Below the pieces are notes generated by a model. That model did no database searches and was not told the DNA's origin. It saw nothing but the letters and a program-made list of their open reading frames with translations. From the NCBI RefSeq assembly GCF_001515525.1, contig NZ_BCNQ01000013.1, positions 1-64,000 on the forward strand: a DNA stretch of 64,000 nt, written 5' to 3'. This document shows, in pieces, positions 13,646-34,844 of the stretch (positions are counted from its first letter, which is position 1; each line of letters opens with the position of its first letter). The translations under genes and the position numbers were made by a program. The DNA is from Piscicoccus intestinalis NBRC 104926 (lineage in GTDB: Bacteria; Actinomycetota; Actinomycetes; Actinomycetales; Dermatophilaceae).

Positions 13646-15592
13646 ATGCGCGCCGTCGACCCGACGCCGCTCTCGTCGGGGATTGAGTCGAGTCCCACAC
13701 CGGACGCACCCGAATCCATGCCCGAATGGGTGCGTCACCGGCGGTTGAGCTGGATCCGCTCCGCGGACCGCTGGCTCTGCGCCCGCGTCGACGAGCCGGA
13801 CGACCGGGTGGCCCGGGGCGCGGTGATCGTCGCCCCCTCCTTCGATCGCGAGGCGGTCGTCTCCTTCCGCACCACGCGCGCGCTCGCCGCCCGGGCCCGC
13901 CGCGCCGGCTTCGTCGCGTACACCTTCGCCTGGTCCGGCGACGCCGACTCCAGCACGCTGCCCGAGGACGGCGACCTCGCCCGGCTGTGGCTCGAGGACC
14001 TCACCGCCGTCATCGGGCACGCCCGCGGGCTCGTCGGCCCCGACGCCCCCGTCCACGTCGTCGGCCTGCGGTTGGGAGCGGCCGTGGCGGCCCTGCTCCC
14101 GGACCACGGACCGGGGCGCCGGCTCTACTGGGAGCCGATCTCCGGCGGCTCGTTCCTGCGCCACCACAAGCTCATCCGCCAGACGTCGGTGCCCGTGCCG
14201 ACACTGGAGTCGGTCGTCGAACTCGACGGAATGACCCTCACCCCCGCGCAGGTCAGCGGTCTGCGTCGGCTGCGGGCCCCGAGCGCCGCGAGCCTGGGCC
14301 CGCACGAGGAGCTGCGTACCGAGTCCGACCGGCGCGCCGCCATGCGGCTGGTGCTCGGCGCCCCCTACTTCGCGCACGTACCGCACGCCGCGCTCGACGA
14401 GATCGTCGAGCGCCTCCCGGCCGGCGAGCCCGTCGACCTGCCCGCCTGGACCCCTCAGCTCGTCGCCACGATGAGCGTTCCCGACGCCGAGGGACGTCCG
14501 GCGACCGTCACCGAGGCGATGTGCGAGATCGGCCCGAAGCGGCTGCCGGGCATCGTCACCCGCAGCGCCGACGTCGCGCCTCGGGCGGCGGTGTTGTTCA
14601 CCGCGATGGGCGCCGAGATCAAGGCCGGCCCCGGCGGCGCCTGGTCGCGCGCGGCCCGCGAGCTGGCTCCCGAGGGCGTGTTGTCGCTGCGGGCCGATCG
14701 CGGCGGGCTCGGCGACGACGCGGATCCCGACCACGCCCCCGAGCCGCGGCCCTACACCGACTCCGCGGTGCTCGACGTGGCGTCGGCGACGTCGTGGCTG
14801 TCGGGCCGCGGCCTGCCGGTCATCGGAGTCGGGGTGTGCGCCGGCGCCTGGGCTCTGCTGCGCGCCGCCGCCGACCACGACGCCGCGCTGCGTGCGGTCT
14901 TCGGCGTCAACGTCGTGCACTGGAGCCCGGATTCGGCGGTGTACACCGAGGCGTTCTACGCCCACTACCACGGCCAGGAAGCCGCCGACCGGAGCGCGCC
15001 CGCCGACCGCTCCCCCGAAGGCCGCTCCCCTGAAGGCACCGACACCCCGGACGACGCGGAGGGCGACATTCCCGGCGCCTCGCGCCGCGGAGCCGGCACG
15101 GTGCTGCGCGGTGGGCTCTCGGCCCTGCGGGAGCTGGTGAGCACCGAGCTGGCCATCCGCCTGCCCCGGCTGCGTTCGGCCCTGCGCCCCGACGTGCCGC
15201 TCGACCTCACCGAGCCGCTGCTGCGCACGGTGCCGCGGCGGGTCGGCATCACGCTGCTGTACGGCTGCCACGACCACCGCATCTTCCTCGGCAAGGGCGG
15301 CGGCCGCTCGATGCGGCGGGCGACGCGCGGCGGGCAGCAGTTCGAGGTCGTCGTCGACCCGGCCATCGACCACAGCCTGTTCGCGCAGGCGGCCCAACGG
15401 GAGACGCTGGAGCAGTTGCGCCGGCGGATCGACGCCGAGGCGCCAGTCATCCCAACCGAACCCGCCACCGCGCCGGCGCCTTCGACGGCAGAACCGGGAG
15501 CCCCGGTCATCACCCTCACCCGGGTGGCCGGCGTCGATCACGTGCGGCATCAGGGGCAGGTCTCCCCGGTCTCGAGGGAGGCGGGCCGGTGA
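13646..15592 (+). CDS. Tandem alpha/beta-hydrolase fold protein with Cys nucleophile in second domain
   Basis: The 648-residue protein contains two alpha/beta-hydrolase-like halves. The first (about 35-200) has GAVIVAPSFDREAVVSFR and the elbow GLRLGA, where the nucleophile position is Arg142 rather than Ser; it is probably catalytically dead. The second (about 310-620) has AVLFTAMGAEIKAGPGGA and the elbow GVCAGA with Cys398 as the candidate nucleophile. It ends with a catalytic-type DPAIDHSLF (His576). A G-x-C-x-G elbow is known from polyhydroxyalkanoate synthases and some thioesterases, so acyl transfer is as likely as hydrolysis. The ATG at 13646 has a G-rich site about 10 bases upstream; an alternative ATG at 13718 has none. 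It overlaps the ligase gene by GTGA, so the two are translationally coupled. Substrate unknown. Confidence 0.75.
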   Translation: MRAVDPTPLSSGIESSPTPDAPESMPEWVRHRRLSWIRSADRWLCARVDEPDDRVARGAVIVAPSFDREAVVSFRTTRALAARARRAGFVAYTFAWSGDADSSTLPEDGDLARLWLEDLTAVIGHARGLVGPDAPVHVVGLRLGAAVAALLPDHGPGRRLYWEPISGGSFLRHHKLIRQTSVPVPTLESVVELDGMTLTPAQVSGLRRLRAPSAASLGPHEELRTESDRRAAMRLVLGAPYFAHVPHAALDEIVERLPAGEPVDLPAWTPQLVATMSVPDAEGRPATVTEAMCEIGPKRLPGIVTRSADVAPRAAVLFTAMGAEIKAGPGGAWSRAARELAPEGVLSLRADRGGLGDDADPDHAPEPRPYTDSAVLDVASATSWLSGRGLPVIGVGVCAGAWALLRAAADHDAALRAVFGVNVVHWSPDSAVYTEAFYAHYHGQEAADRSAPADRSPEGRSPEGTDTPDDAEGDIPGASRRGAGTVLRGGLSALRELVSTELAIRLPRLRSALRPDVPLDLTEPLLRTVPRRVGITLLYGCHDHRIFLGKGGGRSMRRATRGGQQFEVVVDPAIDHSLFAQAAQRETLEQLRRRIDAEAPVIPTEPATAPAPSTAEPGAPVITLTRVAGVDHVRHQGQVSPVSREAGR

Positions 15593-16845
15593 CCGCGTCG
15601 ACAACCGGGCTCGTGCGGCACGCCGACCCGACGATCCGCCGGAAGGTCGACGAATTCGCCTCGGCGTTGACGCGGGGCGACTCGATCCTCGTGCGCCCCA
15701 AGGCCGACTACGACGGGATCGACCGGGTCGTCGCCACGATCAGCGGGGCCGCCGCGGCCGCAACCGGTCGGCTGCTCGTCACCGACCTTGAGTCCGAGGA
15801 GCTCACGCAGACAATCGAATCCGTCGAACACCCCGAGTCGTCGGCGGGATCGACGCCGCTGTTCGCGTTCCACACCTCCGGCTCCACCGGCTCCCCGAAA
15901 TGCGTGATCTACGAACGGCCGCAGGTGATCTCGCACGCGGACGCGGTGATCGCCACGCTCGGGTTGAGCGCGGCTGAGAACTACGTCGCGCTGCCGCCCA
16001 TGCGGTTCGCCTACGGGTTGAGCATCGTGGTCAGCCACCTGCTCGCCGAGGTGCCGGTGACCTTCGCCGACGCCGAGTGGGGGCTGCCGGCGCTGCAGGC
16101 TGCCGCCGACGACGACGAGCGCCCGTTGGCCGTGTACGCCCTCCCCCAGCACACGCCGCTGCTGCTGGCCAGCGACCTGGCCCCGGACCGCCTCGAGCGG
16201 TTGCTCATCGCGGGCGGCCGGCTCTCGGGCGCTTCGGCACAGGCCCTCGCCCGCCGCTTCCCGCGGATGCGCCTGACGAACATGTACGGCCAGGCCGAGA
16301 TGGGGCCGCGGCTGGCCACCTGGCACGGCGACCCCGCCGACTTCACCGAGGGCCTCATCGGGAGCCCGATCCCCGGGGTCGACCTCGACGTCGCCGACGA
16401 CGGGGTGCTGCTCGCGCGCAGCGACCACGCGATGACGGCCGCGATGCGCGCCCCGTACGAGGCGATGGAGCCGTTCGCCGGGCGGAACGAGGCCGTGCGC
16501 ACCGGCGACCGGGCGACCCGCCTGCACTCCGGCCCGCACGCCGGGCTGCTGCGGCACGACGGCCGTGCCGACCATGTGCTCAACGTGGCCGGCACCAAGG
16601 TCGATCTGCATCGTGTGACGGCGATCGTGCAAGAGGTGACCAAGCCGCTGCTCGTCAACGTCGGCACGCGCCCGGCACGCCGCGGCGGCGACCTCGTGCC
16701 GGTCGTGGAGATCGTGCCGAACGGACCGGCTCCGAGCAGCACCGCGCCCGTGCGGCGCGCGCTGCACACCGAATTCGGCGGACTGGCCGCCTTGTTCGAC
16801 CTGAGATACGTCGACCGACTCACGCTGAAGGAGAGTGGCAAATGA
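15589..16845 (+). CDS. AMP-forming acyl/aryl ligase (ANL superfamily) that probably loads the adjacent ACP
   Basis: The 418-residue protein is a compact adenylate-forming enzyme. The P-loop A3 motif is HTSGSTGSPKCVIYER (residues about 100-115), A5 is NMYGQAEMGPRL, A7 is RTGDRATRL, and a hinge-like GRADHVLNVAGTK follows. The C-terminal catalytic lysine lies in LTLKESGK at the very end. At 418 residues it is shorter than most acyl-CoA ligases (500-600), mainly through a reduced N-terminal domain. It would activate a carboxylate with ATP and pass it to the phosphopantetheine arm of the ACP encoded 1 kb downstream. The GTG start overlaps the hydrolase stop by four bases, and its own stop overlaps the next start by ATGA. 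Confidence 0.85.
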   Translation: MTASTTGLVRHADPTIRRKVDEFASALTRGDSILVRPKADYDGIDRVVATISGAAAAATGRLLVTDLESEELTQTIESVEHPESSAGSTPLFAFHTSGSTGSPKCVIYERPQVISHADAVIATLGLSAAENYVALPPMRFAYGLSIVVSHLLAEVPVTFADAEWGLPALQAAADDDERPLAVYALPQHTPLLLASDLAPDRLERLLIAGGRLSGASAQALARRFPRMRLTNMYGQAEMGPRLATWHGDPADFTEGLIGSPIPGVDLDVADDGVLLARSDHAMTAAMRAPYEAMEPFAGRNEAVRTGDRATRLHSGPHAGLLRHDGRADHVLNVAGTKVDLHRVTAIVQEVTKPLLVNVGTRPARRGGDLVPVVEIVPNGPAPSSTAPVRRALHTEFGGLAALFDLRYVDRLTLKESGK

Positions 16846-17774
16846 GCACCGTGCAGGAACGCTGCACCTGGATCACCGAGCAGGTACACCGGCTGGGGCG
16901 CCGGGGTGCGCTCGTGCAGCTGTCGGGAGGGATCGACTCCTCGGTCGTCCTGCACCTGTGCGCCAAGGCCCTGGGGCCGGACAACGTCGTCGCCTTGTAT
17001 CTACCGGATGACTCAACCGGGCCCGAGACGAAGGCCTTCGTCGAGGCGGCCGCGCAGAACGCGGGCGTGCGGCTCATCGAGCGCTCGATCGCGGCGACGA
17101 TCGAGGCCCAGCAGCCGATCGCGCAGATCAACGAACTCATCCGCAAGTACGAACCGGGTTACGACCCGAGCACGCACGCGTACTCGGTGAACGCCGCGAG
17201 CACGATCGCGCGCCGCCTCGGGGCCCTGGTGTACGAGGTCGCGATCGGCCCGCGCCACGGCAGGCCGGAGAAGACCGTGCGGCTCTCGGTCGAGGACCTG
17301 CGGGCCCTGATCGCCTACCAGAACCGCAAGCAGCGCACCCGCATGCTGTTCGCCTACGCGGAGGCCGAGGCGCTCGGGTACGCGGTGGTCGGCGCGAGCA
17401 ACGGCGACGAACTCGACACCGGATTCGTCGTCAAGTACGGCGACGACGCGGCCGACATCTGCGCGATCGGAGACCTGTCCAAGCCGCAGGTCTACGAGTT
17501 CGCCCGCGAATTGGGCGTGCCACAGCAGATCATCGACCGCACCCCGACGACGGACACGTACGCGCTGGAGCAGACCCAGGAGGACTACTACTACGCGCTG
17601 CCCGCCGACGTGCTGCGCCGGCTCGTCGGCGACGGGGAGAGCGCGATCACCGACGAGGTCATCGAGGAGGTGCTGCCGCAGTGCCCGGGCTGGAAGGCCG
17701 CCGCGCTGCGACAGGCCGCCACGGGCCTGGCCGCCACCCTGCGCTACCAGCGCATCCGCAGTCTTCGCCCGTGA
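16842..17774 (+). CDS. NadE-like ammonia-dependent synthetase (N-type ATP pyrophosphatase)
   Basis: The 310-residue protein carries the N-type ATP pyrophosphatase loop SGGIDSS at residues 28-34. It also has the NAD synthetase signatures YQNRKQRTRM, GASNGDELDTGFVVKYGD and GDLSKPQVYEFARELGVP. NadE adenylates nicotinate adenine dinucleotide and forms the amide with ammonia. This protein lacks the N-terminal glutaminase domain usual in actinobacterial NadE. It is embedded in an operon with an ACP and a ligase, so it may amidate a different carboxylate. Start and stop overlap or abut its neighbours (ATGA with the ligase; 44 bases to the ACP). A housekeeping NadE role is not excluded. Confidence 0.8.
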   Translation: MSTVQERCTWITEQVHRLGRRGALVQLSGGIDSSVVLHLCAKALGPDNVVALYLPDDSTGPETKAFVEAAAQNAGVRLIERSIAATIEAQQPIAQINELIRKYEPGYDPSTHAYSVNAASTIARRLGALVYEVAIGPRHGRPEKTVRLSVEDLRALIAYQNRKQRTRMLFAYAEAEALGYAVVGASNGDELDTGFVVKYGDDAADICAIGDLSKPQVYEFARELGVPQQIIDRTPTTDTYALEQTQEDYYYALPADVLRRLVGDGESAITDEVIEEVLPQCPGWKAAALRQAATGLAATLRYQRIRSLRP

Positions 17775-17818
17775 GCACTACTGCATCCCAAGGCTTTTCA
17801 CTTACTGAGGAAGGAATC

Positions 17819-18061
17819 ATGAAACCCGACTGGAGCACCGTCGAGAAGGACCTGCTCGAGAATGTCTTCTACGCCTTCGACGCGCAGGCCGTGCGTGACT
17901 CCGACGATCTGACCCGCGACGGGATGCTCGACTCCCTGTCGGTCGTGGCGATTCTCGAGGCGCTCATCGAGGCGACCGGCGAGGAGGAGGCGTTCGACGA
18001 CGCCCAGGCCGACGACTTCCGCAACCTGGCCGCGATCCACGAACTGTACGAACGGGTCTGA
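17819..18061 (+). CDS. Acyl carrier protein
   Basis: The 80-residue acidic protein has the phosphopantetheine attachment motif in DGMLDSLSVV, with Ser39 as the carrier site, between predicted helices I and II. Its size and acidity are typical of discrete carrier proteins that serve AMP-ligases. A strong GAGGAAGGA ribosome binding site lies just before the ATG. It sits between the NadE-like and AsnB-like genes with one base to the latter, so it is the likely tether for the module's substrate. It is too divergent to be the fatty-acid AcpP (no DSLDxVE). Confidence 0.88.
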   Translation: MKPDWSTVEKDLLENVFYAFDAQAVRDSDDLTRDGMLDSLSVVAILEALIEATGEEEAFDDAQADDFRNLAAIHELYERV

Positions 18062-18062
18062 C

Positions 18063-19961
18063 GTGTGCGGGTTCGCGGTCGTCATCGGCCCGGAGGCGGT
18101 GGCCGCCGCGCTCGCCGCACCGGCCTGGGAGGATCGCGAGCGCCGGGTCGAGGAGGCCCTCGCCCGGCGCGGACCCGACGAGCACGCGTGGCGGCGCACC
18201 GACGAGGCGATCGTCGCGTCGTCGCGGCTGACGCACTGGGAGGAGGGCGCCTCCACCCAGCCGTTCACCGACGACGAGGGCGGCCTAGGGGTCTTCAACG
18301 GTGAGCTGTTCAACCTGACGGCCCTGCAGGAGCGCGTCGGCCGCCCGGGCGCCTCGGAGATCGAGGTGCTCACGGTCGGTTTCCGCCAGGAGGGGCCGAG
18401 CTTCTTCCGCGCGATCGACGGGCAGTTCGCGGCGCTGCTGCGGGCGAGCACGGACGCGCCGTACGTCGCGGTGCGCGACCGGTTCGGCATCTGCCCGCTG
18501 TACCTCTCGCACGTCGAGGGCGGCGTGGCGCTGGCCTCGCACCTGGAGTCGCTCATGGCGTTGGCCGACGGCGACTGGGGGCCGTCGATGGCGGGGCTGC
18601 ACGGGGTGCTGACGACGTGGGCGCCGACCGACGGACGCACGGCGTTCGAGGGCATCCGCCAGGTGGCGCCCGGCGAGCTCGTCGTCGTCGACCCCGACGG
18701 GCGCGCGCACCGGCAGGTGTGGAGTCCGCCGCTGCCGCGCCCGGAGCCGCGCCCGGCCGCGGGCGGCGTCGATCTCGCCGAGCAGCTGGAGACGGAGTTG
18801 CGGCAGGCCGTGCGGGCGCGGATGCGTTCGATCACGCCGGTGTCGTGCCTGGTCAGCGGCGGGATCGACAGCACGGTCATCGCGGCGCTGGCCGCGCAGG
18901 AGGGCGCCCGCACCGCGGTCGGCCTCGTGCTCGAGGGCGACGAGATCGTCGGTTCGCGGCAACGTCAGGTGGCGCGGGCGGTGGGCCTGGACATCATCCA
19001 ACACACGCTGACACCCGCGGAGACCGTGGAGGTCTTCGAGCGGTACGTCGCGACGCGCCGGGTGCCGCTCGTGCGCCTCGGCCCGGTGGGCATGACCGCG
19101 CTGGCGCGGCGGGCGCGCCGCGAAGGCGTGCGGGCGGTGCTCTCGGGCGAGGGCGCCGACGAGCTGTTCGCCGGTTACGACTCCTACCGGGTGCTCGCGG
19201 CGCGGGCCGGGGTGTTCGGGCCGGTCAACGACCTCGACTTCGCGGCCTTCGGGGAACCGGAGTTCGACGCCGAACGCGGCCCGCGCTGGGCCCGCGGCTA
19301 CTGGCGCACGCTGGTGCGCCTGGCCGGCGGCTCCGCGACCGGACGCGCCGACCTGCTGCGGCCGGTCGCGGCGATGCTCGACGAGGGGCTGCTCGCGGGC
19401 GACGAGCCGGCCGCCCCGGCTCCGACGGGCGATTCTTCGACGAGCGACGCGCTGCTGGACCGCCGGCAGGACGACCTGCGCGACCTGCTCGGGGCGTACC
19501 TGCTGACGGTGCAGGGCGATCACGCGTGGATGGAGGAGTCGGTGGAGCTGCGCCCGCCGTACCTCGCGCAGGGCGTGGCGCGGCTGGCGCTGGAGCACAA
19601 CCCGGCCGACTTCGTCGCGGTCGGCGGCGGCAAACAGCCGGTGCGCGGACTGCTCGCCCGGCTGGCCCGGGAGCGGCCGGCGTTGGCGGAGCTGGACTTT
19701 GCGAAGGCGGCGTTTCGGGTCGACGTGCGTTTCGTGCTGCGCGACCCGGCCGCGTTCGACCGTCTCACCAGGCTCGTCGCGGCCTGCCCGCGCGAGTTCG
19801 TCGACACCGACGCGGTGCTCGAGCGCGCGGCCCACTGCCGCCGCGTGGGCACCTGCAGCGAGGCCGAGTCGATGCTGTTCACCTTCGCCGCGAGCCTGGG
19901 GGTGCTGGCACGCGTCGATGAGCCCGCGACCGAGCCCGCGACCGCCCCGGTCGTCGATTGA
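18063..19961 (+). CDS. AsnB-like class II glutamine amidotransferase
   Basis: The GTG start is followed directly by Cys2, the N-terminal nucleophile of class II glutaminase domains (MCGFAVVIG), which confirms the start. The glutaminase half has VFNGELFN and GDRFGICPLYL-type segments. The synthetase half has the PPi loop SGGIDS at residues 265-270 and LSGEGADELFAGY at 360-372. At 632 residues the length is that of asparagine synthetase B-like enzymes. In EPS and exosortase loci such proteins amidate unknown carboxylates rather than aspartate. One base separates it from the ACP gene, so a carrier-bound substrate is plausible. Its end is the last gene of the module. Confidence 0.88.
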   Translation: MCGFAVVIGPEAVAAALAAPAWEDRERRVEEALARRGPDEHAWRRTDEAIVASSRLTHWEEGASTQPFTDDEGGLGVFNGELFNLTALQERVGRPGASEIEVLTVGFRQEGPSFFRAIDGQFAALLRASTDAPYVAVRDRFGICPLYLSHVEGGVALASHLESLMALADGDWGPSMAGLHGVLTTWAPTDGRTAFEGIRQVAPGELVVVDPDGRAHRQVWSPPLPRPEPRPAAGGVDLAEQLETELRQAVRARMRSITPVSCLVSGGIDSTVIAALAAQEGARTAVGLVLEGDEIVGSRQRQVARAVGLDIIQHTLTPAETVEVFERYVATRRVPLVRLGPVGMTALARRARREGVRAVLSGEGADELFAGYDSYRVLAARAGVFGPVNDLDFAAFGEPEFDAERGPRWARGYWRTLVRLAGGSATGRADLLRPVAAMLDEGLLAGDEPAAPAPTGDSSTSDALLDRRQDDLRDLLGAYLLTVQGDHAWMEESVELRPPYLAQGVARLALEHNPADFVAVGGGKQPVRGLLARLARERPALAELDFAKAAFRVDVRFVLRDPAAFDRLTRLVAACPREFVDTDAVLERAAHCRRVGTCSEAESMLFTFAASLGVLARVDEPATEPATAPVVD

Positions 19962-20187: not shown

Positions 20188-22169
<1,982 letters not shown>

Positions 22170-22222
22170 ATCTCCGTCGCCCCTGCTTTCTGACAGCCCA
22201 GCCGACCCGAAGGAACTGCAGC

Positions 22223-23611
22223 GTGACCGACCTCGCCGTGCGCACCACCGCCATCCCGGGCCTGCTCGTCGTCGACCTGCCGGTCCACGGCGACAACCGG
22301 GGCTGGTTCAAGGAGAACTGGCAGCGGGCCAAGATGACCGCCCTCGGGCTGCCCGACTTCGGGCCCGTGCAGCAGAACGTGTCGTTCAACGACGAGCGCG
22401 GCGTGACACGCGGCATCCACGCCGAACCCTGGGACAAGTTCGTCTCGGTGGCCACCGGGCGCGTCTTCGGCGCGTGGGTGGATCTGCGCGAGGGCTCGTC
22501 GTTCGGGGCCGTGGTCACGTGTGAAATACAGCCTGGCACCGCCGTCTTCGTGCCGCGCGGGGTCGGCAACGCCTACCAGACCCTGGAGCCGGCGACCGCC
22601 TACAGCTACCTGGTCAACGACCACTGGAGCGCCGCGGCCCGGGAGCGCTACACGTTCGTCGGCCTGCACGACGAGTCGCTCCATATCGATTGGCCCATCC
22701 CGTTGACACAAGCCACGCTCTCGGAGGCCGATCGGCAGCACCCGCTGCTGGTCGACGCCCGACCGGTCGCCGCGCCGCGCACCCTCGTGCTCGGCGCCGG
22801 CGGTCAACTCGGCGCCGCCCTGGTGAACACGCTGCCCGGCGCGCGCGGCCGGACCCGCGCCGAGTGCGACCTGGCCGACCCGGCCGCGGTGGCCGGCCTC
22901 GACCTCGCCGACGTCGACGCGATCGTCAACGCCGCCGCCTACACCGCCGTCGACCAGGCCGAGACCGCGGACGGCCGGCGGGCGGCGTGGGCCACGAACG
23001 TCACCGGCCTGGCCGGGCTCGTCGAGCGCGCCCGGGAGCGCGGCATCCCGATCGTGCACGTCTCCTCCGACTACGTCTTCGACGGCACCGCGGCCGAGCA
23101 CCCTGAGGACGAGCCGTTCAGTCCGCTGGGCGTGTACGGGCAGACGAAGGCCGCCGGCGACGCCCTCGTCGCGGCCTATGAGCGGCACTACCTCGTGCGC
23201 ACGAGCAGGGTCGTCGGGACGGGCAAGAACTTCGTCGCGACGATGGCGATGCTCGCCGACAAGGGCATCTGCCCCAGCGTCGTCGACGACCAGCACGGCC
23301 GGCTGACGTTCACGACCGACCTGGCCGCAGGCATCGCCCACCTGCTGGCGACCCGCCCGCCCTACGGCACGTACAACCTGACCAACACCGGCCCGGTGCA
23401 GACGTGGGCCGACATCGCCGCCGACATCTTCGAGCTGCGCGGCCGCGACCGGTCCGACGTCACCCCCGTCTCCACCGCCGAATACGGCCAGGGCAAGTCG
23501 ATGGCGCCCCGCCCCGAGCACAGTGCCCTGCCGCCGGGGAAGATCGAGGCCACGGGCTTCGTCGCGAGGCCGGCCGCGGACCGGCTCCGCGAGTATGTGG
23601 CCGGTCTGTAG
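22223..23611 (+). CDS. rmlCD: Fused RmlC-RmlD: dTDP-4-dehydrorhamnose epimerase and reductase
   Basis: The 462-residue protein is a fusion. Residues about 1-180 are an RmlC cupin: HGDNRGWFKENW, FNDERGVTRGIHAEPWDK with the catalytic His66 region, and AYQTLEPATAYSYLVND. Residues about 187-462 are RmlD: TLVLGAGGQLGAAL, VNAAAYTAVDQAE, VSSDYVFDG, GVYGQTKAAGD and VRTSRVVG. Together they would turn dTDP-4-keto-6-deoxyglucose into dTDP-L-rhamnose. The GTG start at 22223 follows AAGGA at eight bases. Fusions of this kind occur in some actinobacteria; here the fusion completes a four-activity rhamnose pathway in three genes. Confidence 0.93.
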   Translation: MTDLAVRTTAIPGLLVVDLPVHGDNRGWFKENWQRAKMTALGLPDFGPVQQNVSFNDERGVTRGIHAEPWDKFVSVATGRVFGAWVDLREGSSFGAVVTCEIQPGTAVFVPRGVGNAYQTLEPATAYSYLVNDHWSAAARERYTFVGLHDESLHIDWPIPLTQATLSEADRQHPLLVDARPVAAPRTLVLGAGGQLGAALVNTLPGARGRTRAECDLADPAAVAGLDLADVDAIVNAAAYTAVDQAETADGRRAAWATNVTGLAGLVERARERGIPIVHVSSDYVFDGTAAEHPEDEPFSPLGVYGQTKAAGDALVAAYERHYLVRTSRVVGTGKNFVATMAMLADKGICPSVVDDQHGRLTFTTDLAAGIAHLLATRPPYGTYNLTNTGPVQTWADIAADIFELRGRDRSDVTPVSTAEYGQGKSMAPRPEHSALPPGKIEATGFVARPAADRLREYVAGL

Positions 23612-28124: not shown

Positions 28125-29528
28125 ATGTCCCCACGGTCCCGCGCCCTGCGACGCGTGTTCGCCCTAGCGCTCGCGCCCCTCATGCTCGCCGCCGCAATGA
28201 TCACCCCCGACGGGGCCGCCAGCGCCGAGGTCAACACCGTTCCCCAGGCGCCCGCGACCGCCGAGGTCTACAACCCCCATCGCGGGATGTACTCGTGGCT
28301 GGAGCAGCCGAGCATCGTGCCCGGATGGAAGACGTCGGACATCTACTGGCGCGACCAGATCCAGTGGGGCTCCCAGGTGGAGCGCACCCGCGGCCAATTC
28401 GACTTCTCGGCCTTCGAGCGCGGGATGCAGGCCGCCAAGGCCACCAACGGCCGATTCTCCTTCCGCGTCATGGCGATGTGCCCCGGCTGCGGCGGCAACC
28501 TCACGCCCTCCTATGTGCCCCGGCAGGCCAACGGCGCCCCGGACTGGAACAGCGAGGCGTTTCTCAGCGGCTACGAGAGGCTCATGAACGCCCTGGGCGC
28601 GCGGTACGACAAGGATCCGCGGCTCGGCATCATCGACGTCGGAGCCTATGGCATGTGGGGCGAGTGGTACTGCGACGAAAGCTGCGGCACCCCGATGACC
28701 CAGGCCAACCTCCAGCGCGTGGTCCGCGCGGTCTCGACGGCGTTCCCGTCCAAGTACCTAGTTATGCCGATCGACCTGGAGGCCGCGCAATACGGGGCCA
28801 GCATCAACCCCAAGATCGGGCTACGGTACGACTGCATCGGCGGGGATTTCGCGATGACGCTGCGCTACCTGCCGGATTCGCTCCGTGACGTCTGGAAGCG
28901 TGCGCCGGTCGTCGGCGAGTGGTGTCCCATGGCGGGCTCCACGCCGCAGAAGGGCATCCAGGACGTGCGCGAGCTGCATCTGTCGATGCTCAGCAGCGCC
29001 AACTTCGCCACGCCGTACGACCAGCTCGACTCCGCTGGCCAGGCCGCCGTGCGGACGGCGTACGTCACCAGCGGTTTCCGCTACACCCTGACGTCCTACG
29101 ACGCGCCCGGCACCGCCACGGCCGGCGGCTCGGTGCCTGTGAGGGTCACGGTGCGCAACCTCGGGGTGGCGCCGACCTACGACTCGTGGCGGACCCGGCT
29201 ACACGTCGTCAACTCCGCCGGCGTCACCGTCGCCTCCGCCACCCTGGGCCTCGACCTGCGCCGGCTCGCCGAGGGCTCGGCCACCCACGGCAGCACCATC
29301 TGGCTCCCGCGGACAATGCCGGCAGGCAAGTACCGCCTTGCGATCGCGGCCACCGACAACCTCGGCTACCTCAAGCCGCTCGCCTTCGCCAACCCCGGCC
29401 GCGACGGCGCGGGCCGATACAGCCTGGGCTACGTCTCCGTGACGGCGCCGGCGGGCACGACGGCCGCCAAGCGTAAGCCCGGGCGCCGCACGGGGACGAC
29501 GTCCAGGACACTGCACTCCACACGGTGA
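28125..29528 (+). CDS. Secreted DUF4832-type glycoside-hydrolase-like protein (copy 1)
   Basis: The 467-residue protein has a Sec signal peptide (RRVF, then a hydrophobic run, cleavage near GAASA at about residue 35). A TIM-barrel-like domain follows with NPHRGMYSWLE, SDIYWRDQIQWGSQVER, FSFRVMAMCPGCGGNL, GAYGMWGEWY and RYDCIGG. A beta-sandwich tail contains VTVRNLGVAPTYDSW. This combination corresponds to the DUF4832 group of putative beta-glycosidases. The paired WGEW and nearby acidic residues may be catalytic. The start has AGAGG eight bases upstream. A close paralogue is encoded at 33462. It probably acts on exported polysaccharide; the substrate is unknown. Confidence 0.8.
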   Translation: MSPRSRALRRVFALALAPLMLAAAMITPDGAASAEVNTVPQAPATAEVYNPHRGMYSWLEQPSIVPGWKTSDIYWRDQIQWGSQVERTRGQFDFSAFERGMQAAKATNGRFSFRVMAMCPGCGGNLTPSYVPRQANGAPDWNSEAFLSGYERLMNALGARYDKDPRLGIIDVGAYGMWGEWYCDESCGTPMTQANLQRVVRAVSTAFPSKYLVMPIDLEAAQYGASINPKIGLRYDCIGGDFAMTLRYLPDSLRDVWKRAPVVGEWCPMAGSTPQKGIQDVRELHLSMLSSANFATPYDQLDSAGQAAVRTAYVTSGFRYTLTSYDAPGTATAGGSVPVRVTVRNLGVAPTYDSWRTRLHVVNSAGVTVASATLGLDLRRLAEGSATHGSTIWLPRTMPAGKYRLAIAATDNLGYLKPLAFANPGRDGAGRYSLGYVSVTAPAGTTAAKRKPGRRTGTTSRTLHSTR

Positions 29529-30688: not shown

Positions 30689-32092
30689 GTGAGTAAGCGT
30701 AGCGGGCTGTACCCGCATGTCCGAGTCGACGCCGCTCATGTGCCGGCGGTGGCGCAGGCGGGCGGTGCGCTGCTGACGCGCACGGTGCGGGTCGCGGGCC
30801 TGGACGCGGCATTGAGTGAGGCGTTGCGGCCGTGGCGTAAGCCGCTGGCCAGGCACGATCCCGCGAAAGTGCTGCTGGATGTCGCGGTCTCGTTGGCGTT
30901 GGGTGGGGACGCCTGCCGTGACGCAGCCCTGTTGCGGGCCGAGCCGGGGGTGTACGGGCTGGTGGCCTCGGACGCCACGATCTGCCGCACCATCGCCGCC
31001 CTGGCCCGCGATGTGGCGCGGGTGGAGAAGGTCATCGCAGCCGCCCGCGGCACCGCGCGTGGCCACGTGTGGGACCTTGCCGCCGACGCGTCGCCGAGTC
31101 ACGCTATCGACGCGACGAATCCGCTGGTCATCGACCTGGACGCGACCCTGGTGACTGCGCACTCCGACAAGGAGCAGGCCGCGCCCACATTCAAGAGAGG
31201 CTTCGGGTTCCACCCGTTGTGCGCGTTCGCCGACCACGGACCGGCCGGCACCGGGGAGCCGCTGGCGATGCTCCTGCGGCCCGGGAACGCGGGCTCCAAC
31301 ACGGCCGCCGACCACGAGGCCGTGATCAAGTCCGCGCTGGCCGCGGTCCCTGGGATCAACCCGTCCCGTCCGGGACGCAAGGTGTTGATCCGCACCGATG
31401 GCGCCGGCGGCACGCGGGAGTTGTTGTGGTTCTGCCACCGCCGCGGCCTGTCGTACTCGATCGGGTGGACCCTGCCCGCGGCCATGCCGCAGCTGTACCG
31501 CCTCATTCCCGAGGACGGGTGGACGGCCGCGTACAACGCCGACGGGCAGGCCCGGGACGGGGCTGACGTCGCCGACATCACCGACCTGTTGATGGCTCAC
31601 GGGAAGCTGAAGGGGTACCCGCCCGGCCTGCGGGTCATCGTTCGCCGGGAACGTCCTCACCCCGGCGCGCAGCTACGGTTCGAGGACATCGACGGGTACC
31701 GCCTGACTGCATTCGTGACAAACACACGCCGCGCGCAGCTCGCTGACCTGGAGCTACGACACCGTCGGCGGGCTCGTTGCGAAGACCGGATCCGGATCGC
31801 CAAAGACACCGGCCTGGCGAATCTGCCCCTGCAAGGCTTCGATCAAAACCGGATCTGGCTACTCATCGTGCAACTCGCGAACGACCTGCTCGCCTGGATG
31901 ACCATGCTCGCCCTGGACGGCCATGAGGCCCGCCGGTGGGAACCCAAGACGCTACGGCACCGCCTCTTCACGATCGCAGCGACCCTGGCCCGCACGAGCC
32001 GGCAACGACTCCTGCACATCAAGGACACCGCTCCCTGGGCGGCCCTGTTCACCACTGCCTGGAACAAGCTCACGAGCCTGGCCCCACCCTGA
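30689..32092 (+). CDS. IS1380-family transposase
   Basis: The 467-residue protein is a DDE transposase with VIDLDATLVTAHSDKEQ (first Asp), IRTDGAGGTRELLWF (second Asp) and RCEDRIRIAKDTGLANLP (Glu). The family-typical FNxxWLLIVQLANDLLAW-like helix is near the C-terminus. The reading frame is uninterrupted, so the element may be active. The GTG start begins two bases after the leader hairpin. It carries out cut-and-paste or copy-out transposition with a 4-bp target duplication. Confidence 0.95.
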   Translation: MSKRSGLYPHVRVDAAHVPAVAQAGGALLTRTVRVAGLDAALSEALRPWRKPLARHDPAKVLLDVAVSLALGGDACRDAALLRAEPGVYGLVASDATICRTIAALARDVARVEKVIAAARGTARGHVWDLAADASPSHAIDATNPLVIDLDATLVTAHSDKEQAAPTFKRGFGFHPLCAFADHGPAGTGEPLAMLLRPGNAGSNTAADHEAVIKSALAAVPGINPSRPGRKVLIRTDGAGGTRELLWFCHRRGLSYSIGWTLPAAMPQLYRLIPEDGWTAAYNADGQARDGADVADITDLLMAHGKLKGYPPGLRVIVRRERPHPGAQLRFEDIDGYRLTAFVTNTRRAQLADLELRHRRRARCEDRIRIAKDTGLANLPLQGFDQNRIWLLIVQLANDLLAWMTMLALDGHEARRWEPKTLRHRLFTIAATLARTSRQRLLHIKDTAPWAALFTTAWNKLTSLAPP

Positions 32093-32430: not shown

Positions 32431-33465
32431 ATGGCGGAGCTAGGGGGCAGTCCGGTGGGGTCGACGGTGACCATTCACGATGCATTCGGATCGGGAACGG
32501 TCCTCACCATTGTCGTACCCACGTACAAGCGACCCGATCTTCTTGTTCAGTGCCTGAGGTCTCTCGCGGCCCAGACGTTCACAGGATTCGTCGTCCTGGT
32601 GTGCGATAACTCCCCGGAGCGAGAGGCGCAGCAGGTCGTGGAGTCCCTGGGGGATGAACGCTTCCGGTACCTCCCGCGAAACGAAAATCTCGGAATGCTG
32701 CGCAACGTCCTCGCGGGGTTCATGGAGGCGTCCACTGAATTCGTGATGGAGGTGGACGACGACGATCTCCTGTACCCAGAATGTGTCGAAGAGCTCCTCG
32801 CGCCGTTTGCCTCGCACCCCGCACTCACCATCGTGTTCGGCGATCTTGTCGTCATAGACGACGATCTGCAAGTGATGCCCCTACAGCGCCGAGTCAAGTA
32901 CCTCCCTAGCTTGGACTTTCTCGCTGAGGGCGTCCATCAGCCTTTCACCAGTCTCGCGGCCCACGGGTACGTCTTCCTCATGGCGTCGATCATTCGCCGA
33001 GACTGCATCGACTGGGCCGGGGTTCCGGACAGCGCGGCGACGGCATATGACCGGTACCTCACGCTGGCAGCCTCACGAGGTGACGCTGCAGGGTACTTTG
33101 TTCGGAAGGCGGTCATGGCGTATCGCGTTCACGAACGCTCCGACGGGCTTCGCTTCACGACACAGTCTTTACGCGGCGCGCTGGACGTGCTTACCCGGGA
33201 GGTGCCGCGCACCGCTCCGGGATCCAGGAAGTGGGTCGAACGCGAGGTGGCGCGGACCCGCTTGCAGTTGCTTCGCGCGCTGCGAGCGACGAACGACCGG
33301 CAGGGCGTCCGCGATCAGGCACGGTCGCTCATGGCACCTCCCGGCATTCGCGCACTGGCCTACCTGGCCCTTCGGCAGTACCTTCCTCAGCAGTTGCGCC
33401 TCGCGCGCAGCGTGACCCGCGATCGCCTCCGTAACGCGCCGCTGGGGCGGACACCCGGACGGTGA
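32431..33465 (+). CDS. GT2-family glycosyltransferase
   Basis: The 344-residue protein carries VLTIVVPTYKRPDLLVQCLR, VCDNSPE, RNENLGMLRNV and the donor-binding MEVDDDDLLYPE near residue 110. It is a cytoplasmic inverting transferase with a C-terminal basic helix region that may touch the membrane. The ATG at 32431 follows AGGCGGGGGG closely. The stop overlaps the GTG of the second DUF4832-type gene, so the transferase and the secreted protein are co-expressed. Its preceding 165 bases, between the IS right end and the start, are the likely promoter. Confidence 0.83.
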   Translation: MAELGGSPVGSTVTIHDAFGSGTVLTIVVPTYKRPDLLVQCLRSLAAQTFTGFVVLVCDNSPEREAQQVVESLGDERFRYLPRNENLGMLRNVLAGFMEASTEFVMEVDDDDLLYPECVEELLAPFASHPALTIVFGDLVVIDDDLQVMPLQRRVKYLPSLDFLAEGVHQPFTSLAAHGYVFLMASIIRRDCIDWAGVPDSAATAYDRYLTLAASRGDAAGYFVRKAVMAYRVHERSDGLRFTTQSLRGALDVLTREVPRTAPGSRKWVEREVARTRLQLLRALRATNDRQGVRDQARSLMAPPGIRALAYLALRQYLPQQLRLARSVTRDRLRNAPLGRTPGR

Positions 33466-34844
33466 CCGTTGAGCGAGGCCGCCGATACCTTCGCCTCGTC
33501 GGCCTGGCAATGCTGGCCCTCCTAGTCGCGTTGACCCCCGTCGCGCCACCGGGAGACGACCCGTACGGCTTCGCCGACCCCGCGGAGGCGCTACCGACGT
33601 ACGAGGTCACCTCGGTGGGCGTGGCGTTCACTCCGCCCAGCATCGGCACAGATGCCGACGTGCCAAACCCCGGACGCGGACAGTACCAGTGGCTGAACGT
33701 CGCTTCTGCTATTCCCGACCTGGCAAGCACCGACGTCTACTGGCGCGACCAGTTGCAGTGGGGGGCCCAGATAGAGAAGGAGAGGGGGGCCTACGACTTC
33801 TCGGCCTTCGACGCGGGCTTGGCGGCAGCAGGAGCCAACCGATCCCGCTTCATGTTCCGCATCATGGCGTTCTGCCCGGGTTGCGGAGAGAACCTGACAC
33901 CGGCCTACATTCCGCGTCAGCCCGACGGCACTCCGGACTGGAACAGCGAGGAATTCCTGGAGGCGTGGGAGAATCTTATGTCCTCCCTGGGCTCCCGCTA
34001 CGATCACGACCCGCGTCTCGGGTTCATAGATGTTGGGGGATACGGACATTGGGGTGAGTGGTACGTCCCAGAGAGGTCATCCAGCACACCGATCACGATG
34101 CCGAATGCCGCCCGCCTCATCCGAGCCGTCGTGCGCGCTTTTCCCCACAAACACGTACTTATGAACTACATCGACCCCTTTCCAAGGACCGCCGTCGCCA
34201 TGAGCTCCAAGGTGGGACTGCGCTACGACTGCATCGGAGGCTTCCCGCAGACGCTGAAGTTCCTTCCCGACGGCATGGATCAGCTCTGGCGTCGCAGCCC
34301 GATCGTCGGCGAGTGGTGCCCCCACGCCGAGACGACAGCGTCCCTGGGCCTGCGCACAGTGCACGACCTGCACCTGTCGATGCTCTCGTCGGGCAATTTC
34401 CCGCACCCCCTCGATACTCTGCACCCCTCCGAGCGGGCGGCATACGCCCAGGCCTACCACGACAGCGGCTTCACGTACCGCCTCGACCGTGTGACATTGA
34501 CCGGGCAGCTCGCCCCCGGCGGGCGCCTACGGATCACGTCGACGTGGTCGAACTCAGGCGTGGCTCCCACCTACGACGAGTGGACACCGCGGCTGCAGTT
34601 GCGCACGGCGAGGGATAAAGTCGCCTGGCAGTTCCCGCTGTCGGTCGACCTGCGAGCGGTTACTTCGGATCGCGGACCCCGGATGACAGTCGACAGCGCC
34701 GACATCCCGGAAGGTCTCCGGGGCGTCTTCGCTGTCACGGTCGTGGCTGAGGATCCACAGGGCTATCTCGCCCCGTTGCGGTTGGCGAACGGCCAGCGCC
34801 GCCCTGGTGGCGGCTACTGGCTGGGATACCTGCGGCTGGGATGA
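33462..34844 (+). CDS. Secreted DUF4832-type glycoside-hydrolase-like protein (copy 2)
   Basis: The 460-residue protein is a clear paralogue of the one encoded at 28125. Shared blocks include NPGRGQYQWL, STDVYWRDQLQWGAQIEKER, FRIMAFCPGCGENLTPAYIP, GGYGHWGEWY, RYDCIGGF, VGEWCP and LHLSMLSSGNF, and the C-terminal SNSGVAPTYDEW. An N-terminal hydrophobic segment (GLAMLALLVALTPVAP) acts as signal peptide or anchor. Both copies keep the Cys pair in FCPGCG. The GTG start overlaps the upstream glycosyltransferase stop (GTGA). It probably works extracytoplasmically on the repeat unit or polymer. Confidence 0.8.
   Translation: MTVERGRRYLRLVGLAMLALLVALTPVAPPGDDPYGFADPAEALPTYEVTSVGVAFTPPSIGTDADVPNPGRGQYQWLNVASAIPDLASTDVYWRDQLQWGAQIEKERGAYDFSAFDAGLAAAGANRSRFMFRIMAFCPGCGENLTPAYIPRQPDGTPDWNSEEFLEAWENLMSSLGSRYDHDPRLGFIDVGGYGHWGEWYVPERSSSTPITMPNAARLIRAVVRAFPHKHVLMNYIDPFPRTAVAMSSKVGLRYDCIGGFPQTLKFLPDGMDQLWRRSPIVGEWCPHAETTASLGLRTVHDLHLSMLSSGNFPHPLDTLHPSERAAYAQAYHDSGFTYRLDRVTLTGQLAPGGRLRITSTWSNSGVAPTYDEWTPRLQLRTARDKVAWQFPLSVDLRAVTSDRGPRMTVDSADIPEGLRGVFAVTVVAEDPQGYLAPLRLANGQRRPGGGYWLGYLRLG

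Follow-up and report, generated by a model that had tools for sequence, protein, structure and literature searches.

A fused cysteine-type hydrolase beside polysaccharide genes accompanies a variant of a known, functionally unexplained four-gene carrier-protein block in Piscicoccus intestinalis

What is a compact set of carrier-protein genes doing beside the polysaccharide genes of an actinobacterium? We analyzed 64,000 nucleotides of Piscicoccus intestinalis NBRC 104926 (contig NZ_BCNQ01000013.1, positions 1 to 64,000; here called the window), in which an earlier note had picked out five compact genes at 13646-19961. All five are on the plus strand. The first encodes a tandem alpha/beta-hydrolase of 648 residues (13646-15592, an open reading frame [ORF] throughout), and it is followed by an AMP-forming ligase of 418 residues (15589-16845; PF00501, 3e-21) and by a NadE-like PP-loop amide synthetase of 310 residues that starts at the ATG at 16842 and has no glutaminase domain (16842-17774; PF02540, 3.6e-41). 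Next come an acyl carrier protein (ACP) of 80 residues from the ATG at 17819 (17819-18061; DSL motif and a profile match to ACPs of related gene sets) and an AsnB-like glutamine-dependent amidotransferase of 632 residues whose initial Met is followed by Cys (18063-19961; PF00733, 5e-40; PF13537, 1e-15). An ORF check found no internal stop in any of them, and the junctions are, in order, a 4-nucleotide overlap, another 4-nucleotide overlap, a 44-nucleotide gap and a 1-nucleotide gap. The five-gene observation, its coordinates and the intactness of the genes are confirmed; the interpretation in the earlier note is supported in part, and its claim that this version is distinct is not. The same arrangement recurs in relatives and across phyla; hence it is not a product of chance. 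We conclude that the module is a variant of a known, functionally unexplained four-gene kind, with a fused Cys hydrolase beside polysaccharide genes.

The four genes in question, which we refer to as the core block, encode the AsnB-like protein, the ACP, the AMP-ligase and the NadE-like protein. When one genome was scanned for each species, at least 549 relatives of the NadE-like protein came up, and the neighbors of the best 80 were examined. On the same strand within 6.5 kb, an AsnB gene was present at 75 of these 80 loci, a ligase at 73 and an ACP at 68 (the ACP counts are probably lower bounds, since only a few members, window-type, rhizobial and actinobacterial, went into the model). All four genes were present at 66 of the 80, so that the set does recur as a block, as had been proposed. 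Twelve gene orders occur among the 66 full blocks, and co-membership that survives this many reorderings argues for a shared pathway. By a reading of record titles, the loci span at least 11 phyla: Actinomycetota, Bacteroidota, Chloroflexota, Armatimonadota, Pseudomonadota, Verrucomicrobiota, Nitrospirota, Acidobacteriota, Planctomycetota, Desulfobacterota and Myxococcota. Among close Dermatophilaceae relatives with a window-type NadE, the order ligase-NadE-ACP-AsnB was kept in 10/10, and the tandem hydrolase precedes it in 4 of these 10.

Does the block resemble anything already described? Rhizobial plasmids carry asnB-ACP-ligase-nadE, and the pSymB record of Sinorhizobium meliloti reads asnB-SMb20651(ACP)-SMb20650(ligase)-nadE1. 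Ramos-Vega et al. reportedly described this pSymB operon around the ACP SMb20651, with the same four gene families, in 2009. The four-gene block is not new: it is of the S. meliloti SMb20651 operon kind, the closest published system and one that the earlier note had not named. The two have the four families adjacent on one strand, NadE-like proteins that are 38% identical and an Asp-Ser site in the ACP. They differ in gene order, the ACP and ligase of the window are very divergent, and the window ligase is shorter. The window also has the tandem hydrolase and a polysaccharide locus, whereas we found in it no counterpart of the protein of about 370 residues that accompanies most rhizobial blocks. 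That protein stands beside the block in 33 loci, mostly of rhizobia and their relatives (for example, locus L012, 7116-8192, and locus L031, 4506-5702), and has no match in Pfam, NCBIfam or the PDB. It is perhaps an acyltransferase and a candidate partner of the block. A resemblance to GNAT acyltransferases was seen by eye; it has no library match, and we make no claim of it. As a separate observation, the asnB-like gene of S. meliloti AK57 pSymB (locus L010, 8090-10020) is split into several ORFs in its record, by either a real change or a sequencing error.

Our search of the literature after 2009 found no paper giving the product of the block or a later function for it. According to a later report that cites the original study, coexpression of the ligase SMb20650 with holo-SMb20651 in Escherichia coli yields acylated ACP (PMC7232532); SMb20650 cannot replace FadD and lacks oleoyl-CoA synthetase function (PMC7232532). 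By analogy with these homologues, for which both formation of the holo-ACP and its ligase-dependent acylation have been demonstrated, the window ligase may load the window ACP. Although it is shorter than its relatives of about 500 residues, its motifs are intact (TSGSTGSPK, YGQAE, RTGD, GRADH and the C-terminal Lys, judged over 85 homologues). Where amino acid adenylation domains place the Asp that binds the amino group, the window ligase has Ala and 31 of the 85 homologues have Asp; the lack of this Asp is therefore mild evidence against an alpha-amino acid cargo. The window ACP has no match in Pfam or NCBIfam, and no library that we tried recognizes its sequence. We identify it as an ACP because of its invariant Asp-Ser, its profile-profile match to annotated block ACPs (75% probability, E 2.5e-5) and its constant place in the block. 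D38-S39 is invariant in 18/18 block ACPs, and Ser39 (codon 17933-17935, plus strand) is the predicted phosphopantetheine site. The genome has two matches to phosphopantetheinyl transferase (PF01648).

The AsnB-like protein keeps the N-terminal Cys, the glutaminase residues, the PP-loop SGGxDS and the motif SGEGADE, and so fits the AsnB-like glutamine-dependent amidotransferases. It scores 216 bits against the asparagine synthetase model TIGR01536, below the cut-off of 267. Homologue alignments showed that the catalytic residues of both this protein and the ligase are conserved. OxyD-type AsnB-like enzymes amidate a malonyl thioester in tetracycline biosynthesis. An AsnB-like enzyme acting on a carrier-bound dicarboxylic acid would perform the same chemistry; the likeness is one of chemistry alone, and unlike the OxyD setting, the window has no polyketide synthase that we could see.

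We turn to the tandem hydrolase. It consists of a hydr2-like domain 1 (about residues 1-285) and a hydr1-like domain 2 (about residues 286-648). It has no Pfam match, and its NCBIfam matches, first to TIGR03101 (hydr2_PEP) and then to TIGR03100 (hydr1_PEP), are weak and below cut-off, which relates it remotely to the pair of hydrolases linked to exosortases, to which it had been compared. An AlphaFold2 model built with 18 sequences (pLDDT 81, pTM 0.81) contains two alpha/beta-hydrolase domains. Foldseek matched the model to alpha/beta-hydrolases over about 350 to 380 columns at high root mean square deviation, too loosely to single out a closest relative. The G-x-S-x-G nucleophile of serine alpha/beta-hydrolases is missing in both domains, with Arg in its place in one and Cys in the other. 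In domain 1, the nucleophile elbow reads GLRLG, with Ser lost and Arg142 (codon 14069-14071, plus strand) lying between strand 136-141 and helix 143-148 of the model; among 20 tandem homologues, this residue is Arg in 18 and Ser in none. In domain 2, the elbow reads GVCAG, and Cys398 (codon 14837-14839, plus strand) lies between strand 392-397 and helix 399-411; Cys is found here in 20/20 homologues. The probable catalytic His is in the motif DHSLF (Asp575-His576, codons 15368-15373, plus strand), conserved in at least 90% of homologues.

The same Arg and Cys elbows occur in a verrucomicrobium, a lentisphaeran and a planctomycete in which two genes next to the block encode the hydr2-like and the hydr1-like protein; such pairs, with one Arg-elbow and one Cys-elbow member, adjoin it at loci L029 (12822-14674), L035 (16788-18484) and L091 (10918-12869). 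The separate hydrolases of two scanned loci match hydr2_PEP and hydr1_PEP below cut-off. Together these sequences suggest that the Arg/Cys division may be a general feature of the hydr1/hydr2 pair. Fused hydrolases were also found in Shinella, on a "Roseateles" plasmid and in Archangium. These homologues rule out that the fusion is unique, and it does not mark out the window version as had been thought. A Cys nucleophile elbow (G-x-C-x-G) acting on acyl thioesters is known from polyhydroxyalkanoate synthases and other Cys alpha/beta-hydrolase acyltransferases, and these precedents make acyl transfer by the Cys398 domain plausible. The elbow shared with polyhydroxyalkanoate synthases is an analogy only, with the superfamily as common ground. 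Thioesterase action is a possible alternative to acyl transfer.

How might the five proteins work together? We propose that the ligase, the NadE-like protein, the ACP and the AsnB-like protein would act as one acyl-activation unit. The ACP would be phosphopantetheinylated at Ser39, and the ligase would adenylate a carboxylic acid and load the product onto it. The AsnB-like protein, with its own glutaminase, and/or the NadE-like protein, which would need ammonia, would turn a carboxylate of the cargo, or of the cargo's precursor, into an amide. In this lineage, the acyl group would then move from the ACP to Cys398 in domain 2 of the hydrolase, which would pass it to a sugar of the neighboring polysaccharide pathway, while domain 1 would be catalytically dead and serve a structural or docking role. 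The four-gene linkage, the intact active sites, the pattern of Cys without Ser and the polysaccharide setting are the computed basis of this proposal; the amidation, the transfer by way of Cys, a sugar as the target and the kind of acyl group are inferred. As a whole, from ACP loading through amidation to transfer by Cys398 onto a polysaccharide sugar, we put the proposal forward tentatively, at somewhat short of an even chance.

Several observations weigh against it. The window ACP is very divergent. The C12 and C18 acylation of SMb20651 that the 2009 S. meliloti study is said to have seen in E. coli may not reflect the native cargo. About half of the core-block loci, most rhizobia notably, have no polysaccharide marker within 10 kb, although our scan for markers is a crude one that undercounts. 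Since so many loci, rhizobial and others, are of this kind, exopolysaccharide (EPS) is not an obligatory partner of the block. In nine family genomes the tandem hydrolase is present but a window-type NadE gene is not, and the fetched stretches of up to 20 kb around the hydrolase contained no core gene; hence the hydrolase can work without the four-gene block. Conversely, in one complete single-contig genome (G615, locus L107), the block lies among polysaccharide genes and the tandem hydrolase was not found.

Perhaps, then, the block makes a small acyl amide, either diffusible or bound to a lipid, or some other metabolite derived from the ACP, with no connection to polysaccharide, and in this lineage it stands next to EPS genes because genome islands collect at that place? 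Sinorhizobium, Mesorhizobium and most other rhizobia do carry the block without polysaccharide genes, often with the protein of about 370 residues in place of the hydrolase, and in two genomes (G637 and G594) about 20 kb separate the hydrolase from the block. However, polysaccharide markers were present in 6/7 long core loci of Dermatophilaceae and in 0/20 control regions, which bears out, for this family, the earlier note's placing of the block beside polysaccharide genes. Moreover, the blocks of Nitrospira and Manganitrophus lie inside exosortase/EPS loci. We regard a product unrelated to polysaccharide as doubtful. The chief ground for caution about our proposal is nonetheless these many loci, rhizobial above all, that show no polysaccharide genes nearby and keep the protein of about 370 residues instead; the acceptor served by the block may differ from lineage to lineage.

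A second alternative is that two separate systems adjoin in the window, the hydrolase working in the polysaccharide pathway, for example by removing or moving an acyl group, without using the window ACP. At least two polysaccharide markers were present in 13/15 hydrolase regions (stretches of up to 20 kb) and in 0/20 arbitrary regions of the same family. In the nine hydrolase-only genomes, the gene likewise sits in glycosyltransferase-containing loci, and the stretch fetched around it shows no core gene. These regions and genomes indicate that the hydrolase belongs first to a polysaccharide setting and that the block joins it in this lineage. Against separate systems, the hydrolase gene shares 4 nucleotides with the ligase gene, four relatives keep the order hydrolase-ligase-NadE-ACP-AsnB, and hydrolase pairs adjoin the block in Verrucomicrobia, Lentisphaerae, Planctomycetes and Archangium. 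Of 150 genomes of the family, 18 have the tandem hydrolase, 11 have the window-type NadE and 9 have both, where 1.3 would be expected (Fisher test, 3e-8; these values ignore shared ancestry and are descriptive only). That the two systems are independent seems to us unlikely.

Could the NadE-like protein simply make NAD? It is above cut-off for PF02540 (141 bits) and TIGR00552 (131.6 bits; cut-off, 63.65). Its best NCBIfam match is NF002048 (PRK00876), at 238.7 bits and below the cut-off of 313, which NadE-like proteins of Shinella (506 bits) and Nitrospira (495 bits) pass. Since NF002048 is nevertheless the best match, we place the window protein on a divergent branch of the S. meliloti kind and do not claim strict membership. 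Its closest relatives among the matches listed are in Kineosphaera limosa (86%) and Mobilicoccus pelagius (71%); searches with single proteins across the genomes of the order and of the phylum turned up distant copies only. An AlphaFold2 model (pLDDT 91) best matches the Helicobacter pylori NadE structure 1xng, a NAD synthetase, with TM-scores of 0.69/0.82. The fold and PP-loop are thus those of NAD synthetases, but the substrate side differs. After the ATP site, on the side where nicotinate or deamido-NAD is expected, the family has PTTDTYxLxQxQEEFYF in place of the PSAxLxxxQTDExxLGxxY loop of NAD synthetases, and the middle segment is about 50 residues longer. Nor is it the only NAD synthetase of the organism, which the earlier note had named as part of what would refute its reading: the genome encodes a separate fused glutamine-dependent enzyme of 718 residues (NF002730, 1046 bits), and a NAD-synthetase-like gene outside the block was found in 12/12 related genomes (4 above the glutamine-type model cut-off, the others weaker partial matches). 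In view of the separate enzyme and these second genes, we reject the NadE-like protein as the NAD synthetase of the organism. Ordinary metabolism, in which a second ammonia-dependent NAD synthetase and an asparagine synthetase are grouped with a fatty-acid ligase and an ACP for supply, is therefore highly improbable: the fold and the curated TIGR00552, which names the protein NAD(+) synthase, fit it, while the dedicated enzyme here and the additional genes in all 12 relatives, the altered loop and middle segment and the near-constant tie to ligase, ACP and AsnB do not. That tie also has a second consequence. As the NadE-like protein is in the block everywhere, including the S. meliloti and Nitrospira blocks, it does not set the window version apart, contrary to the earlier note.

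Is the module a piece of an exosortase system? The note had seen no exosortase, and PF09721 is without a match anywhere in the genome. Exosortase A (XrtA/PEP-CTERM) EPS loci have the same enzyme types (TIGR03098, TIGR03100, TIGR03101 and TIGR03108), but all of the window proteins score far under the cut-offs of the curated models: 41 bits against 592 for ligase_PEP_1, 22 against 168 for hydr1, 25 against 203 for hydr2 and 110 against 817 for the amidotransferase. The two hydrolases are, in addition, fused. The suggested link to exosortase loci is real in other organisms. The core block lies inside exosortase/EPS loci in Nitrospira and Manganitrophus, and the Nitrospira locus scores above cut-off for ligase_PEP_1 (822 bits; cut-off, 592), FemAB (331; 260) and exosortase W (583; 425). 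The Nitrospira block ligase (L043, 6687-9824, and other loci) has 1,045 residues and two complete adenylation domains, the first of which is the above-cut-off ligase_PEP_1. We found no functional study of the block in EPS or exosortase settings. In Sphingomonas, a transposon screen picked up an amidotransferase labeled "exosortase associated" within a locus for cell-surface polysaccharide (PMC11340318), which is suggestive only.

A wider version of our proposal is that a widespread carrier-protein pathway places a probably amidated acyl group on cell-surface glycans or other acceptors through interchangeable transferases, with the Arg/Cys hydrolase pair as the glycan acyltransferase of some lineages, including Gram-positive bacteria without exosortase; it would also explain the ligase, ACP and hydrolase genes of exosortase loci. 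We consider it possible, if on the unlikely side. It would give the hydrolase 1/hydrolase 2 pair of exosortase loci a possible role, that of a Cys acyltransferase plus an inactive partner. Across at least 11 phyla, the parts of the block are labeled piecemeal, for example as "NAD(+) synthase" or "asparagine synthase", and NadE and AsnB annotations of this subfamily are not usable as evidence for NAD or asparagine synthesis. In the window the block is compact and comes with a candidate transferase, so that cargo and acceptor can be tested.

The polysaccharide locus extends downstream of the module from 20188 to 57682. By Pfam it includes RmlA, RmlB, RmlC-RmlD, C-methyltransferases, GT2 and GT4 glycosyltransferases, Wzz, Wzy, a pyruvyl transferase, WecG and two polyprenyl-phosphate sugar transferases. 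A single ORF of 498 residues (22115-23611) encodes a fusion of RmlC, the dTDP-rhamnose epimerase, with RmlD, the reductase. Upstream of the module, on the other strand, is an ORF of 1,289 residues that we take by eye to be the repair helicase Mfd. The polysaccharide locus also encodes two DUF4832 proteins (28125-29528 and 33462-34844), with a DDE transposase between them (30689-32092).

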